64,000 bases of DNA from positions 124,001 to 188,000 of the forward strand of contig JAQIBV010000002.1 in assembly GCA_027858855.1 (NCBI GenBank). Reading direction: 5' to 3'. Shown here in pieces: positions 51,994-56,303 of the stretch. Source of the stretch: Spirochaetota bacterium (GTDB taxonomy: Bacteria > Spirochaetota > UBA4802 > JAFGJZ01). Numbering within the stretch: the first letter of the stretch is position 1; every line of letters begins with the position of its first letter. The position numbers and the translations under genes are program-made. The notes under the pieces are model-generated. The model was not told the origin of the DNA. It made no database searches and saw only the letters and a program-made list of their open reading frames with translations.

Positions 51994-52214
51994 TAAAAGT
52001 TATTTTCTGCGAATGGAATAACTTCTATTAACGGTGAATTTCTTATCGTACTTTTTCGGATCATGCCTCTATCAGCCATACAATCACCACAAAATTTATC
52101 AGAGACCAAAACGATATCGATATCGATATACTCCTCATAAATACCTTTCGCATAACTGCCAAAAAGATATGCCCGCGAAATAATCAAATAACCAATACAC
52201 CTGCCCAGCATCAT
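51990..52214 (-). pseudogene. Truncated MNT-type nucleotidyltransferase
   Basis: 74 residues: AYLFGSYAKGIYEEYIDIDI holds GSxxxG and the metal-binding DxD of minimal nucleotidyltransferases (MntA/antitoxin type), but the normal N-terminal helix is gone. The first 14 codons derive from the hairpin-flank repeat also found at 54.1 and 55.1 kb, so the gene was cut by recombination at that repeat. Probably inactive. Confidence 0.65.
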
Positions 52215-52232
52215 AATTTTTTTGAATTATGG
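52200..52232. repeat. Copy 1 of the CAGCATCATAATT hairpin
   Basis: CAGCATCATAATT and AATTATGGTGCTG pair with one G-T around TTTTTG. Same hairpin and flank as at 54138-54172 and 55117-55151, but here followed by the toxin-antitoxin repeat instead of a DUF1566 gene. Confidence 0.75.
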
Positions 52233-52267
52233 TGCTGGGGAGCGCGAAACCGAGATACTGCTCAAAG

Positions 52268-52567
52268 CAAAATCTAACAATTACTGCAATTTTTTTCTAA
52301 TCCAAGCTGGCGAACGTCTTGACTCAAGTACTGCAAAAACAATAATAGAAGTATCTTCGATTGTATAATAAACGGAAAATGGAAAACGCGTGGATTGCAT
52401 CCGAAAATAATTTTTGTACTTTTTTGGATGTATGCCTGCATACAGATGTAATGAATCAATATCTGAATAGATTGAATCAAGAAAGTACGAACCAACTCCC
52501 CGAGATTGCTGTTCATAAAAAAATTAGCCTTCGTTAATATCATTCATGGCAGAAGGAAGAATTGTTA
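52268..52567 (-). pseudogene. ParE/RelE-like toxin, inactivated copy
   Basis: Same sequence as the intact toxin at 63416-63715 but with two nonsense changes: codon 2 is TAG instead of AAG (start also ATG to GTG), and the Tyr codon after NDINEG is TAA instead of TAT. The rest (SIYSDIDSLHLYAGIHPKKY, SRRSPAWIRK) is well kept, so inactivation seems recent. Confidence 0.8.
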
Positions 52568-52789
52568 TCTACACTCAATTGAATCACGTATCTTTTTTTT
52601 TGCTGTCTCCCAGTCTACTGCTTTCTCTCTACATTCAGCAACAGCTATCTTACGCTCATCAAGAATATCCTTATGCCAATCTGGCACCGGCACTTTTTCT
52701 GCACTTTTACAAAGATCGCCCCATAATAGTTCCATGGCTTCAATTTTTTCGATTCTTGACATTTTATCAACAGGTATGGTGACTTTCAC
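52565..52789 (-). CDS. Addiction-module antitoxin (TIGR02574 type)
   Basis: 74 residues: KIEAMELLWGDLCKSAEKVP and PDWHKDILDERKIAVAE are the hallmark of the putative addiction-module component family paired with RelE/ParE toxins. GTG start with AAGGAG-type site upstream. A base change at its end replaces the stop, adding two residues (ECR) compared with the 63.7-kb copy. Its own toxin is dead, so it may now serve as an anti-addiction copy against the intact module. Confidence 0.8.
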   Translation of the reverse strand: MKVTIPVDKMSRIEKIEAMELLWGDLCKSAEKVPVPDWHKDILDERKIAVAECREKAVDWETAKKKIRDSIECR

Positions 52790-52982
52790 GTTATCGCTCC
52801 TTTAACAGGATAACTGACTTTTATATAAGATTATAAGTATTTGAAAGGAAGTCAATGAGAAAACAGTGAGTTTTAGAACCTCAATCTTGATACTTCGACT
52901 ATATAAAACGCCCCCTCGATACAATTGCTGCGCAATCACTCAGAGAACACCTTACGCCTGGTTGAGCGGAGTCGAGGGCAGC

Positions 52983-53132
52983 TTATTTTTTAACTTTGTC
53001 TATACCAAGGTCTTTGCAGATTTTATTAGCAAGCTGGTCTGAAATCTCTGTATGACGCGGAACTGCAGAGCGCATATTGCTATCAGGATTAAGCCATCAT
53101 TAGTGACGTCCTTCTTCACGGATGAGTTTACA
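52983..53132 (-). pseudogene. HicA toxin relic
   Basis: CKLIREEGRH, two stop codons, then WLNPDSNMRSAVPRHTEISD and ANKICKDLGID correspond to HicA mRNA-interferase toxins (double-stranded RNA-binding fold with catalytic His). The N-terminus is missing and two stops interrupt it. No HicB is seen. Confidence 0.65.
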
Positions 53133-53146
53133 GGAATATACATATC

Positions 53147-53700: not shown

Positions 53701-54157
53701 ACTATCACCTTATAACTTTTATGTTTTAACAGCCTTAATTTTTCAACAAGAAAAATACTGCCAAAATGACAGTCTTTCATAAGGGAACTTCCGCAAACCA
53801 ATGTATGGATGTTCCCTTGTGTGCGCGATGCCTCGCAAAACCAGTATTTTGATTTTTTAAATCAATGAAAATACTGGTTTTTAGTAGCGCCCATTAAGTA
53901 ATATCAGGTTTTTACCTCACCCAGTAGCACTTCGACTGTACAAATCGCCGCGCTTCGATACGTTTTCGATCACTGAGTAGAACGAAGTCCGTACTCGTGC
54001 TGAGCCCGTCGAAGCATCGAAATGCCGCAATCACACTTCGACAAGCTTGTATTAAGCCTGTCGAAATGCTCAGTGCGACGCTCGGGGAACGGAACCAAAT
54101 ACCCAAATATCCAATACACCTACTGTCCAGCCTGCCCAGCATCATAATTTTTTTGAA
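53701..54157. other. Repeat-rich spacer
   Basis: No gene. Holds an AAGGGAAC/GTTCCCTT pair (53781-53818) reminiscent of the 34.8-kb element ends, a long AT-rich stem AAAACCAGTATTTT/AAAATACTGGTTTT (53837-53850 and 53868-53881) followed by T's, and several CTTCGAC/GTCGAAG dispersed-repeat fragments (53926-54090), then the hairpin after the DUF1566 gene. Confidence 0.5.
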
Positions 54158-54172
54158 TTATGGTGCTGCGGA
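54138..54172 (-). repeat. Copy 2 of the hairpin, immediately after a DUF1566 gene
   Basis: CAGCACCATAATTC.. and ..TTATGATGCTG pair across the stop codon of the gene: the last codons (GCA CCA TAA) form one arm. In known DGRs a hairpin just downstream of the variable region is needed for retrohoming; this matches in position. Confidence 0.7.
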
Positions 54173-54718
54173 GCGAACAGGCCACACGTAGTGGGTTTGC
54201 GTCTTATTGAAGTCGCCTTTCAAAATACCATCATTCATATCGATGTACCACGCGTGGGGCGTACTGGGCGCATAGGTCGTCGAACTCCAGTAATAATTTG
54301 CTTGCACATTTGTAAAGCCCTGTCCGTTTAGCCATGTGGAAAGGGCGCTCTGACTGTAGTTTGCCAAGGTCTCAAGCTCGTTGACTGTCGGCAACCGCCA
54401 GTCACTATGACTGGCATAATCCAGGCCTTCGCAGTAAGTAATTGCCCCCCGCCAGCCTCGTTTTGTCGAATCCGGCGACTGTAGCCACATAAGGCCTGTC
54501 ATATTGTCAGTGATGGTGCCGTTGCCATTATCGCTAAAGCGAACCGAGGGCGCGTCGGTACCTGTCTGATAGGTGCCATCATCATTTGCTGTATGTACTG
54601 TTGTTTGGCCGGTGACCGGCAGCTGTTTGCCCGATCCGACCGCGTACAGCACCGCGGTACCCGCGATCAGTATTGCAAATAACGCGAGCTGTAATATTCT
54701 GTTTTGTAGTGTTTTCAT
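54158..54718 (-). CDS. DUF1566 (C-type-lectin-fold) exported protein, possible DGR target
   Basis: 186 residues. An N-terminal hydrophobic segment (LALFAILIAGTAVLYAVG) would export or anchor it. The DUF1566 (Lcl C-terminal) domain covers NGTITDNMTGLMWLQ, ITYCEGLDYASHSDWRLPTV and YYWSSTTYAPSTPHAW to YVWPVRSAAP. This fold is one of those used as the hypervariable display domain in diversity-generating retroelements. Compared with the paralogue at 55137-56303 the last 25 residues before VWPVRS differ almost completely while the flanks are conserved. Its ATG overlaps the stop of the Avd-like gene by four bases. Confidence 0.8.
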   Translation of the reverse strand: MKTLQNRILQLALFAILIAGTAVLYAVGSGKQLPVTGQTTVHTANDDGTYQTGTDAPSVRFSDNGNGTITDNMTGLMWLQSPDSTKRGWRGAITYCEGLDYASHSDWRLPTVNELETLANYSQSALSTWLNGQGFTNVQANYYWSSTTYAPSTPHAWYIDMNDGILKGDFNKTQTHYVWPVRSAAP

Positions 54719-55059
54719 TGTTCCTCCATTAGATTTGGTGTAATTTCGGCCTGTTCTATCACCTGCACAAAGGCAGAAAGGCCGTGAAACGCCTTACACT
54801 CTTTGGCTATAAGCAAAAGTATTATGAACTGTTCTGCGGTATCGCACAGTTTTTCAAGATGGGGCACTTTTTTGTCGCACGACTGGGCACGCAGCACAAA
54901 AAAAAGTATCTGCTGCGAATGCCTGCGCAGATCGGCACCAATAGCAAAACGGTGGGCGCGCGAAAAAGCGCTTACCTGTTTTTCAATCAAAACCGAACAG
55001 CCAAGCGCGGCTTTAAAAATAGGCAGATGCTCGTAACGCGCCATACTATATTGCCCCAT
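54715..55059 (-). CDS. Avd-like four-helix-bundle protein (DGR accessory)
   Basis: About 114 residues from ATG 55059 (AGGG upstream; Met at 55044, MARYEHLPIF, is an alternative closer to the family start). ARYEHLPIFKAALGCSVLIE, DLRRHSQQILFFVLRAQS and CKEAKAF-like KECKAFHGLSAFVQVIEQAE match the accessory variability determinant of DGRs, a pentameric positively charged four-helix bundle that binds the reverse transcriptase and template RNA. A general S23/four-helix-bundle protein is the alternative. It sits between two DUF1566 genes and overlaps the downstream one (ATGA), which supports the DGR reading. No reverse transcriptase is in the window. Confidence 0.7.
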   Translation of the reverse strand: MGQYSMARYEHLPIFKAALGCSVLIEKQVSAFSRAHRFAIGADLRRHSQQILFFVLRAQSCDKKVPHLEKLCDTAEQFIILLLIAKECKAFHGLSAFVQVIEQAEITPNLMEEQ

Positions 55060-55116
55060 AGTGTCCCTAATTATCAAATAACCAAATACCCAATACACTT
55101 ACTGTCCAGCCTGCAC

Positions 55117-55151
55117 AGCATCATAATTTTTTTAAATTATGGTGTTGCGGA
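55117..55151 (-). repeat. Copy 3 of the hairpin, immediately after the lipoprotein DUF1566 gene
   Basis: CAGCATCATAATT and AATTATGGTGTTG around a T-run, again using the last codons of the gene (ACA CCA TAA) as one arm. The flank CTGTCCAGCCTG is shared with copy 2. Confidence 0.7.
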
Positions 55152-56303
55152 GCGCACAGGCCACACGTGGTCGTTATCCGCCTTACGACCGCCGTACACG
55201 CCGGCGGAGCTGTGGACTTGCCACACGTTGGACGTATAGGGCGCGTAGGTTGTAGAACTCCAGTAATCATCACTTGCCTGTACATTCGAAAAGCCCTGGC
55301 CATTCAGCCATGTGTAGGGCTCAGTTTTACCATAATGCGCCAGGCTGCGCAGTTCACGCACATTAGGCAGGCGCCAATCGGTAACTGTAGCGTTTTCTGT
55401 TTCAAGATCTTCGCAATATGTAATGGCATCTGCCCAGTTTCGGGTTAATGTACTCAAGGTTTTCAACCATACCAAACCCGTCATCTCATCGCGAAGCGAA
55501 TCATCACCAATAGCAGTAAAGCGTGTTGCCGGCCAGCTGACGTGCAGTGACGGATTGTTTGTATCATTATATCCGTCCTCACCCTCAAAGGTGTAGCCCC
55601 CCAACTCGGCAGCACCTGTTTTAAAAATTGGTATAGCTCGGTACACCTCAACCGTATAGGTTGTAGTTGTTGTCCCGTCCTGGGTGGTCACCACGATTGT
55701 CACGTTATTCTTGCCAACATCAAGGTTATTCATCGTAAATGCACTGCCCGAAGCGACAGACGAGCCGTTAATGGTTATTGTCGCGTCGCTGTTGGCGGCT
55801 GTCGCAGTAATATCCACCGACTGTGTGTCGTTATAGGCCGGGCTTGCTTCGCTTGAAAAGGGTACGGGCGCATTAAGGTAGTTTGTTGTGCCCGCGTTAA
55901 ATGCCGGCTGCAACTTGCCCTTTGTAAAGGTAAGCGAGGCAAGAGCTGCTACCGCTTCGGCGTCGGTCATGGTTTCATCTTCGTCATCAGTCTCACCGTC
56001 ATCAGTCTCATCAATTAAACTAAAATCATCCGAATACTCTTCATCAATCTTACCGTCGCCGTTTGTGTCCACGCCGTCGGGTGTGCCGTCGCCGTCTACA
56101 TCTATGGCTGTACCGTCGGATACTCCGTCTCCGTCCATATCCACCGAGCCAAGGTCTGTACCTGTTTCGCCGATTACTGTTTCTGTTTCTGTTTCTTTTT
56201 CTGTCTCTGGATCATCAGACCCGCCGCCTCCGTCGCAAGCGGTGAACGCAAAAAATGCTGCAAGAAGCAACACAATGGATACTTTTTTCAACGCATATTT
56301 CAT
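55137..56303 (-). CDS. Surface lipoprotein: Ca-repeat, cadherin-like and DUF1566 domains, possible DGR target
   Basis: 388 residues. Signal peptide with lipobox FTAC (Cys near 23); acidic linker; three Asp-rich calcium-type repeats (DMDGDGVSDG, DVDGDGTPDG, DTNGDGKIDE); a cadherin-like beta-sandwich (LASLTFTKGKLQPAFNAGTT ... TYTVEVYRA); then a C-terminal DUF1566 domain (SLRDEMTGLVWLKTL, VTDWRLPNVRELRSL, DYWSSTTYAP to HVWPVRSATP). This is a classic surface-display layout: anchor, stalk, variable tip. The gene's tip differs from its paralogue mainly between STTYAP and VWPVRS. Expression may vary through the GGTTT repeat upstream. AGGAG precedes the ATG. Confidence 0.85.
   Translation of the reverse strand: MKYALKKVSIVLLLAAFFAFTACDGGGGSDDPETEKETETETVIGETGTDLGSVDMDGDGVSDGTAIDVDGDGTPDGVDTNGDGKIDEEYSDDFSLIDETDDGETDDEDETMTDAEAVAALASLTFTKGKLQPAFNAGTTNYLNAPVPFSSEASPAYNDTQSVDITATAANSDATITINGSSVASGSAFTMNNLDVGKNNVTIVVTTQDGTTTTTYTVEVYRAIPIFKTGAAELGGYTFEGEDGYNDTNNPSLHVSWPATRFTAIGDDSLRDEMTGLVWLKTLSTLTRNWADAITYCEDLETENATVTDWRLPNVRELRSLAHYGKTEPYTWLNGQGFSNVQASDDYWSSTTYAPYTSNVWQVHSSAGVYGGRKADNDHVWPVRSATP

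Follow-up and report, generated by a model that had tools for sequence, protein, structure and literature searches.

Does a cassette of DGR-type target genes that holds no reverse transcriptase (RT) continue to be diversified in trans, or has it been left behind? The question is raised by three genes of the window, by which we mean the whole 64,000-nucleotide stretch analysed (bases 124001-188000 of the 191,672-base contig C53). A preliminary description had proposed that these genes form either a satellite cassette diversified in trans by an RT elsewhere or a remnant. The genome analysed, from one strain, comprises 3.35 Mb in 63 contigs and is 97%-complete; its assembly breaks at or inside the presumably active DGR locus of contig C53, and further template repeats (TRs) may be missing. 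Positions in the neighbouring region L002 are converted to window positions by adding 52000.

On the minus strand of the window, the genes lie in the order VP2, avd1, VP1, and all three reading frames are open. VP2 (55137..56303), the upstream one of two candidate orphan targets, encodes a 388-aa lipoprotein with DxDGDG repeats, a cadherin-like domain (Pfam, E = 4e-14) and, at its C-terminal end, Pfam domain Lcl_C, the former DUF1566 (E = 1e-23). It is followed by the Avd-like gene avd1 (54715..55044; 109 aa), which overlaps by ATGA with the downstream candidate, VP1 (54158..54718; 186 aa). The VP1 product has a signal-like N terminus, is probably secreted and also ends in Lcl_C (E = 2e-29). 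As in DUF1566 targets of DGRs, this C-terminal domain holds the variable region (VR) in VP1, in VP2 and in VP3, a paralog of VP1 outside the window (E = 3e-30). The last ~25 residues before VWPVRS are unlike in VP1 and VP2 in both sequence and length, and the flanks align. Two paralogous DUF1566 genes around an Avd-like gene, a near-total difference between their ends and a lipoprotein with a cadherin-like domain were thus all present, as had been described. The named relatives of VP1 and VP2 come from spirochaete metagenome assemblies.

Neither an RT nor a TR was found in the cassette itself. The earlier statement that no RT is present is correct for the window only, because the window edge cuts off an adjacent DGR with an RT frame beginning 1.5 kb beyond that edge. 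A whole-genome search recovered a single RT, on contig C53, and two avd genes; the DGR RT and adenine-biased TR that the preliminary description had suggested searching for were both found on the same contig as the cassette, and no other TR-like sequence was detected in the genome. This DGR core lies ~9-11 kb from the cassette on the same strand and consists of avd2 (L002:15211-15582, minus strand), the TR (L002:14994-15095, minus), the frame of the RT with its MutS-I tail (L002:13527-15233, minus; 1.5-3.2 kb past the window end) and the target VP3 (L002:12936-13490, minus). Together they span 0.9-3.6 kb past the window end, from VP3 at 0.9 to avd2 at 3.6.

Comparison of the TR with the VP3 VR showed changes at 11 of 35 adenines and at none of 67 non-adenines (Fisher p = 2e-6), so that mismatches fall at TR adenines only, as in a DGR. 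With the motifs LPIGNLTSQ and YCDD and a match to RVT_1 at 2e-15, the RT is of the DGR type. Its closest counterparts elsewhere in the phylum share 34-45% identity across the aligned portion and mostly adjoin an Avd. The accessory protein is represented by avd2. It can be aligned to RT-adjacent Avds and matches bAvd (6e-7) and NCBIfam DivGenRetAVD (1e-4), in neither case reaching the curated cut-off. The order VP - avd - TR - RT is also found in G119, a genome of the same order. The end of contig C53 holds, on the minus strand, the tail of a second target, of whose VR the last 23 bases are present, with a stop codon context like that of VP3. A further lipoprotein gene, VP4, has 81% DNA identity to VP2 over 55537-55949 and runs off contig C22 before Lcl_C. 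The gene cut at the end of C53 is probably VP4, in which case the ends of C53 and C22 would join. The neighbouring locus is probably complete or nearly so, reading VP4 - avd2 - TR - RT-MutS_I - VP3, and we infer that it is presently active.

Two features of this RT frame were recorded. The TR lies in frame within it, with no in-frame ATG, GTG or TTG from the TR end to the first conserved RT residues, and a similar arrangement is present in G119 (L055:3450-4889). At the C terminus, Pfam recognises MutS domain I above the cut-off (2.3e-5), a domain for which no obvious counterpart was found in the other DGR RT frames compared. No description of such a fusion was found in the literature covered, which did not include the large survey 10.1093/nar/gkx1150. 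Scans of genome contigs and viral contigs with the RT gave no relative, and comparison of the RT with phage and plasmid records gave only RT-domain matches of <60% identity, all of them spanning less than 80% of the query. The TR 3' end and the VP alignment matched nothing in the viral contigs, so that no connection to phages emerged. An Rfam search of the DGR region returned nothing.

Judged from DNA alignment, the window cassette is a diverged duplicate of the neighbouring DGR locus that lacks the TR and the RT. The post-VR sequence and avd are 90% identical in DNA between the two copies, VP1 and VP3 85%, and the copies are collinear, with matching blocks at 55118-54744 (L002:15663-15282) and 54730-54171 (L002:13502-12946). 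Relative to the active locus, only TR-RT is missing between avd and the downstream VP. At the junction (54715..54745, minus), avd1 ceases to resemble avd2 and runs into the VP1 ribosome-binding site. Downstream genes were duplicated with the cassette (52240..53139, minus; 90% identical to L002:11382-12313), and no match was detected between the flanks upstream of VP2 and VP4. At the end of the downstream duplication (52178..52245, minus), a nucleotidyltransferase-like gene belonging to it is interrupted, and a hairpin (52206-52234) is present together with fragments of post-VR sequence and of the VR 3' end.

The comparison with the TR placed the VP2 VR, including its 17-nt IMH-like 3' end GTGTGGCCTGTGCGCTC, at 55152..55244 (minus) and the VP1 VR, including its own IMH-like 3' end, at 54173..54271 (minus). 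The 17-nt end is identical to the TR in VP2 and matches it at 16/17 positions in VP1. The VP2 VR is changed at 18/33 adenines and 9/60 non-adenines, and the VP1 VR at 12/34 and 9/62, giving an adenine bias of the mismatches with p = 9e-5 for VP2 and p = 0.02 for VP1. When the invariant 3' end was left out, the bias persisted in VP2 (p = 0.002) and was weak in VP1 (p = 0.053). Relative to the TR, VP1 has one codon more and VP2 one fewer. The TR match expected for these ends was thus found and is adenine-biased, but mismatches also fall at ~15% of the non-adenines. These comparisons support the assignment of VP1 and VP2 as DGR targets, possibly former ones.

Retrohoming copies the TR including its non-adenine bases, and a recently rewritten VR therefore matches the TR at all non-adenines. 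Neither VR does so, and because of these changes the adenine bias was not accepted as proof of present activity. When the flanks were compared with VP3, 39/267 positions were changed in VP1 (14.6%) and 96/267 in VP2. The non-adenine divergence of the VP1 VR equals that of its flank (p = 1), whereas that of the VP2 VR is below its flank (p = 0.0009), which implies that the TR lineage rewrote VP2 at some distant time, though later than the split of VP2 and VP3. Both VRs would have drifted for about equally long since their last rewriting. No inner non-adenine change common to VP1 and VP2 was found; at one TR codon, GCC, VP1 and VP2 have CCC and TCC, the same G being replaced by different bases.

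The identity of the gene between the two targets was also upheld, its product being 89% identical to that of avd2 (90% in DNA). Alignment with known Avds, proposed earlier as a check, placed avd1 in the family but showed it to be incomplete. Compared with 11 other Avds, it has K to I and R to L replacements at columns that are basic in 11/11, and the C-terminal motif IGKQITGW, which with these conserved basic residues marks a functional Avd, is absent. The match to DivGenRetAVD is correspondingly 0.05 for avd1 versus 1e-4 for avd2. At 0.2-0.3, dN/dS between the two genes is below what would be expected of a gene that had long been non-functional and, like the open frames, speaks against complete decay. 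Structure prediction for avd1 from its single sequence gave a low-confidence model (pLDDT 42), and neither an Avd nor VP1 as query found a match among PDB sequences. We conclude that avd1 is probably decayed and may have lost Avd function.

Matching hairpins at the last codons of both target genes had been noted, and they are real. One covers the VP2 stop codon directly after the VR (55116..55144, minus) and another the VP1 stop codon (54137..54165, minus); with the one at the end of the downstream duplication, the genome contains three copies, all in this region, where none is expected by chance, and they are more stable than shuffles (z about -3). Their reading as DGR target hairpins was not borne out. 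Hairpins of phage DGRs have a GC-rich 7-10 bp stem and a 4-nt GRNA loop 4-34 bp past the VR, and BPP-1 activity falls to near background when the loop grows by as few as 2 nt (PMC3240598); the GRNA hairpin is typical of phage DGRs and not strictly required. The window hairpins have a long interrupted stem, an AT-rich core and a 6-nt A-rich loop, although their placement right after the VR does fit. The same type of hairpin is absent next to VP3 and next to the target tail at the contig end, and no GC-rich hairpin with a 4-nt GRNA loop was found 4-34 bp after the VP3 VR. A near-perfect palindrome with 19-bp arms around CGCG (L002:12870-12920, minus) lies ~40 bases after that VR.

Related genomes carry similar genes. 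In the closest, G001, another species of the same genus, a VP2-like and a VP1-like gene are adjacent and contiguous, and each stop codon lies in a related hairpin, degenerate in the case of the VP1-like gene; no RT or Avd was found in this 89% complete genome, and the loss of a DGR there is possible. Since it occurs in G001 without a detected RT or Avd, the hairpin does not follow the distribution of the DGR machinery and probably dates back at least to the origin of the genus. It may thus be an older feature that was lost from the active copy. Its origin as an insertion in the window copy was considered and seems less likely given the same hairpin in the same-genus genome. In the more distant spirochaete UBA5550, both Lcl_C domains lie within one gene, and no Avd or RT was found on the stretch examined (L067). 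A lipoprotein gene with two Lcl_C domains in tandem occurs there at L067:4143-5648 and also at the G002 and G003 loci, which suggests that splitting of such a gene gave rise to the two target genes.

On the sequence evidence, this genome has two diverged copies of a DGR locus, of which one, VP2 - avd1 - VP1, is most probably an orphaned and frozen target cassette. The other copy, just past the window, has rewritten the VP3 VR from the TR at adenines only. The absence of the TR and RT from the window copy is most simply explained by a deletion between avd1 and VP1, after which avd1 would have lost conserved residues. The VRs of VP1 and VP2 would have been written at one time from a TR resembling today's and have only drifted since. 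Both genes probably continue to yield secreted or lipid-anchored C-type-lectin-fold binders of fixed specificity, and a role in surface binding may be supposed; the order of these events is likewise a reconstruction.

Of the two fates first proposed, remnant or diversification in trans, the remnant is favoured. We consider the cassette frozen rather than diversified in trans because of the ~15% non-adenine changes in both VRs, which in VP1 proceed at the rate of its flank, and because of the losses in avd1; the extra codon of VP1 and the missing one of VP2 also speak against rewriting from this TR. It is quite unlikely, then, that the neighbouring RT and TR still diversify the cassette with the help of its own Avd, even though they lie only ~10 kb off, the IMH-like end is kept (exactly over 17 nt in VP2, at 16/17 in VP1), all reading frames are intact, and remote DGR targets are common (PMC7517822; PMC4891356). 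A related reading, which we regard as unlikely, makes the frozen cassette a maintained second-speed repertoire of fixed binders picked by selection out of earlier DGR variants, perhaps with recombination exchanging ends with the active copy or with rare rewriting in trans.

A second TR and RT, missed by an assembly of 63 contigs that breaks inside the DGR repeat, could instead have served the cassette, and the G of the GCC codon is replaced differently in VP1 and VP2, as would be expected if a TR of their own carried an A at that site. This is very unlikely given the single RT of a 97%-complete genome, the lack of any further TR-like sequence and the lack of an inner non-adenine change shared by VP1 and VP2 that would mark a distinct TR. 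Finally, lectin ends may have diverged in the ordinary way, the DGR having been inserted beside pre-existing genes that were never its targets; relatives without a detected DGR do have the gene pair, split in G001 or fused in UBA5550. We hold this to be highly improbable, as the mismatches of both VRs to the TR are adenine-biased, the VP2 VR is closer to the TR than the VP2 flank is to VP3, and an Avd gene sits within the cassette.

The frozen cassette and its sister locus can be compared with known systems. Remote and leftover DGR targets have been described in Treponema denticola (PMC4891356), also a spirochaete, with lipoprotein C-type-lectin targets away from the core and leftover targets in which VR/TR differences fall mostly at adenines. 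The accessory gene of that system is HRDC-like, whereas here it is an Avd, and here the leftover cassette keeps a decayed Avd with the intact locus duplicate ~10 kb off. The DGR of Bordetella phage BPP-1 shares with the neighbouring locus the order Avd - TR - RT, the adenine-only TR/VP3 differences and the IMH-like shared 3' end; unlike it, the locus described here has DUF1566 targets, an RT fused to a MutS-I-like domain, a TR in the RT frame and no GC-rich GRNA hairpin close to the VRs. Remote targets described in cyanobacteria (PMC7517822) are likewise paralogs elsewhere in the genome known by TR/VR similarity, but they were called at >=50% VR identity, whereas the non-adenine mismatches of the present VRs point to an end of rewriting. 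Several DUF1566 targets per genome, as in Stenotrophomonas sp. SKA14, appear in the available text of PMC6642488, where an RT-less duplicate with its own accessory gene is not described. Leftover DGR targets are thus already known; the present case contributes a leftover cassette with its own, probably decaying Avd beside an intact sister locus.

These results show that finding a target, an Avd and a hairpin close to an RT does not prove ongoing diversification in trans, and they are a reminder that genome scans should look beyond the window edge. In addition, the locus provides an example of a DGR RT with a fused MutS-I-like domain. An intact-looking DGR and a decaying duplicate side by side give an unusually clear view of DGR duplication and decay, and the two copies, together with relatives in which the target genes but no DGR were detected, may allow the stop of diversification to be roughly dated from the non-adenine changes in the VRs.
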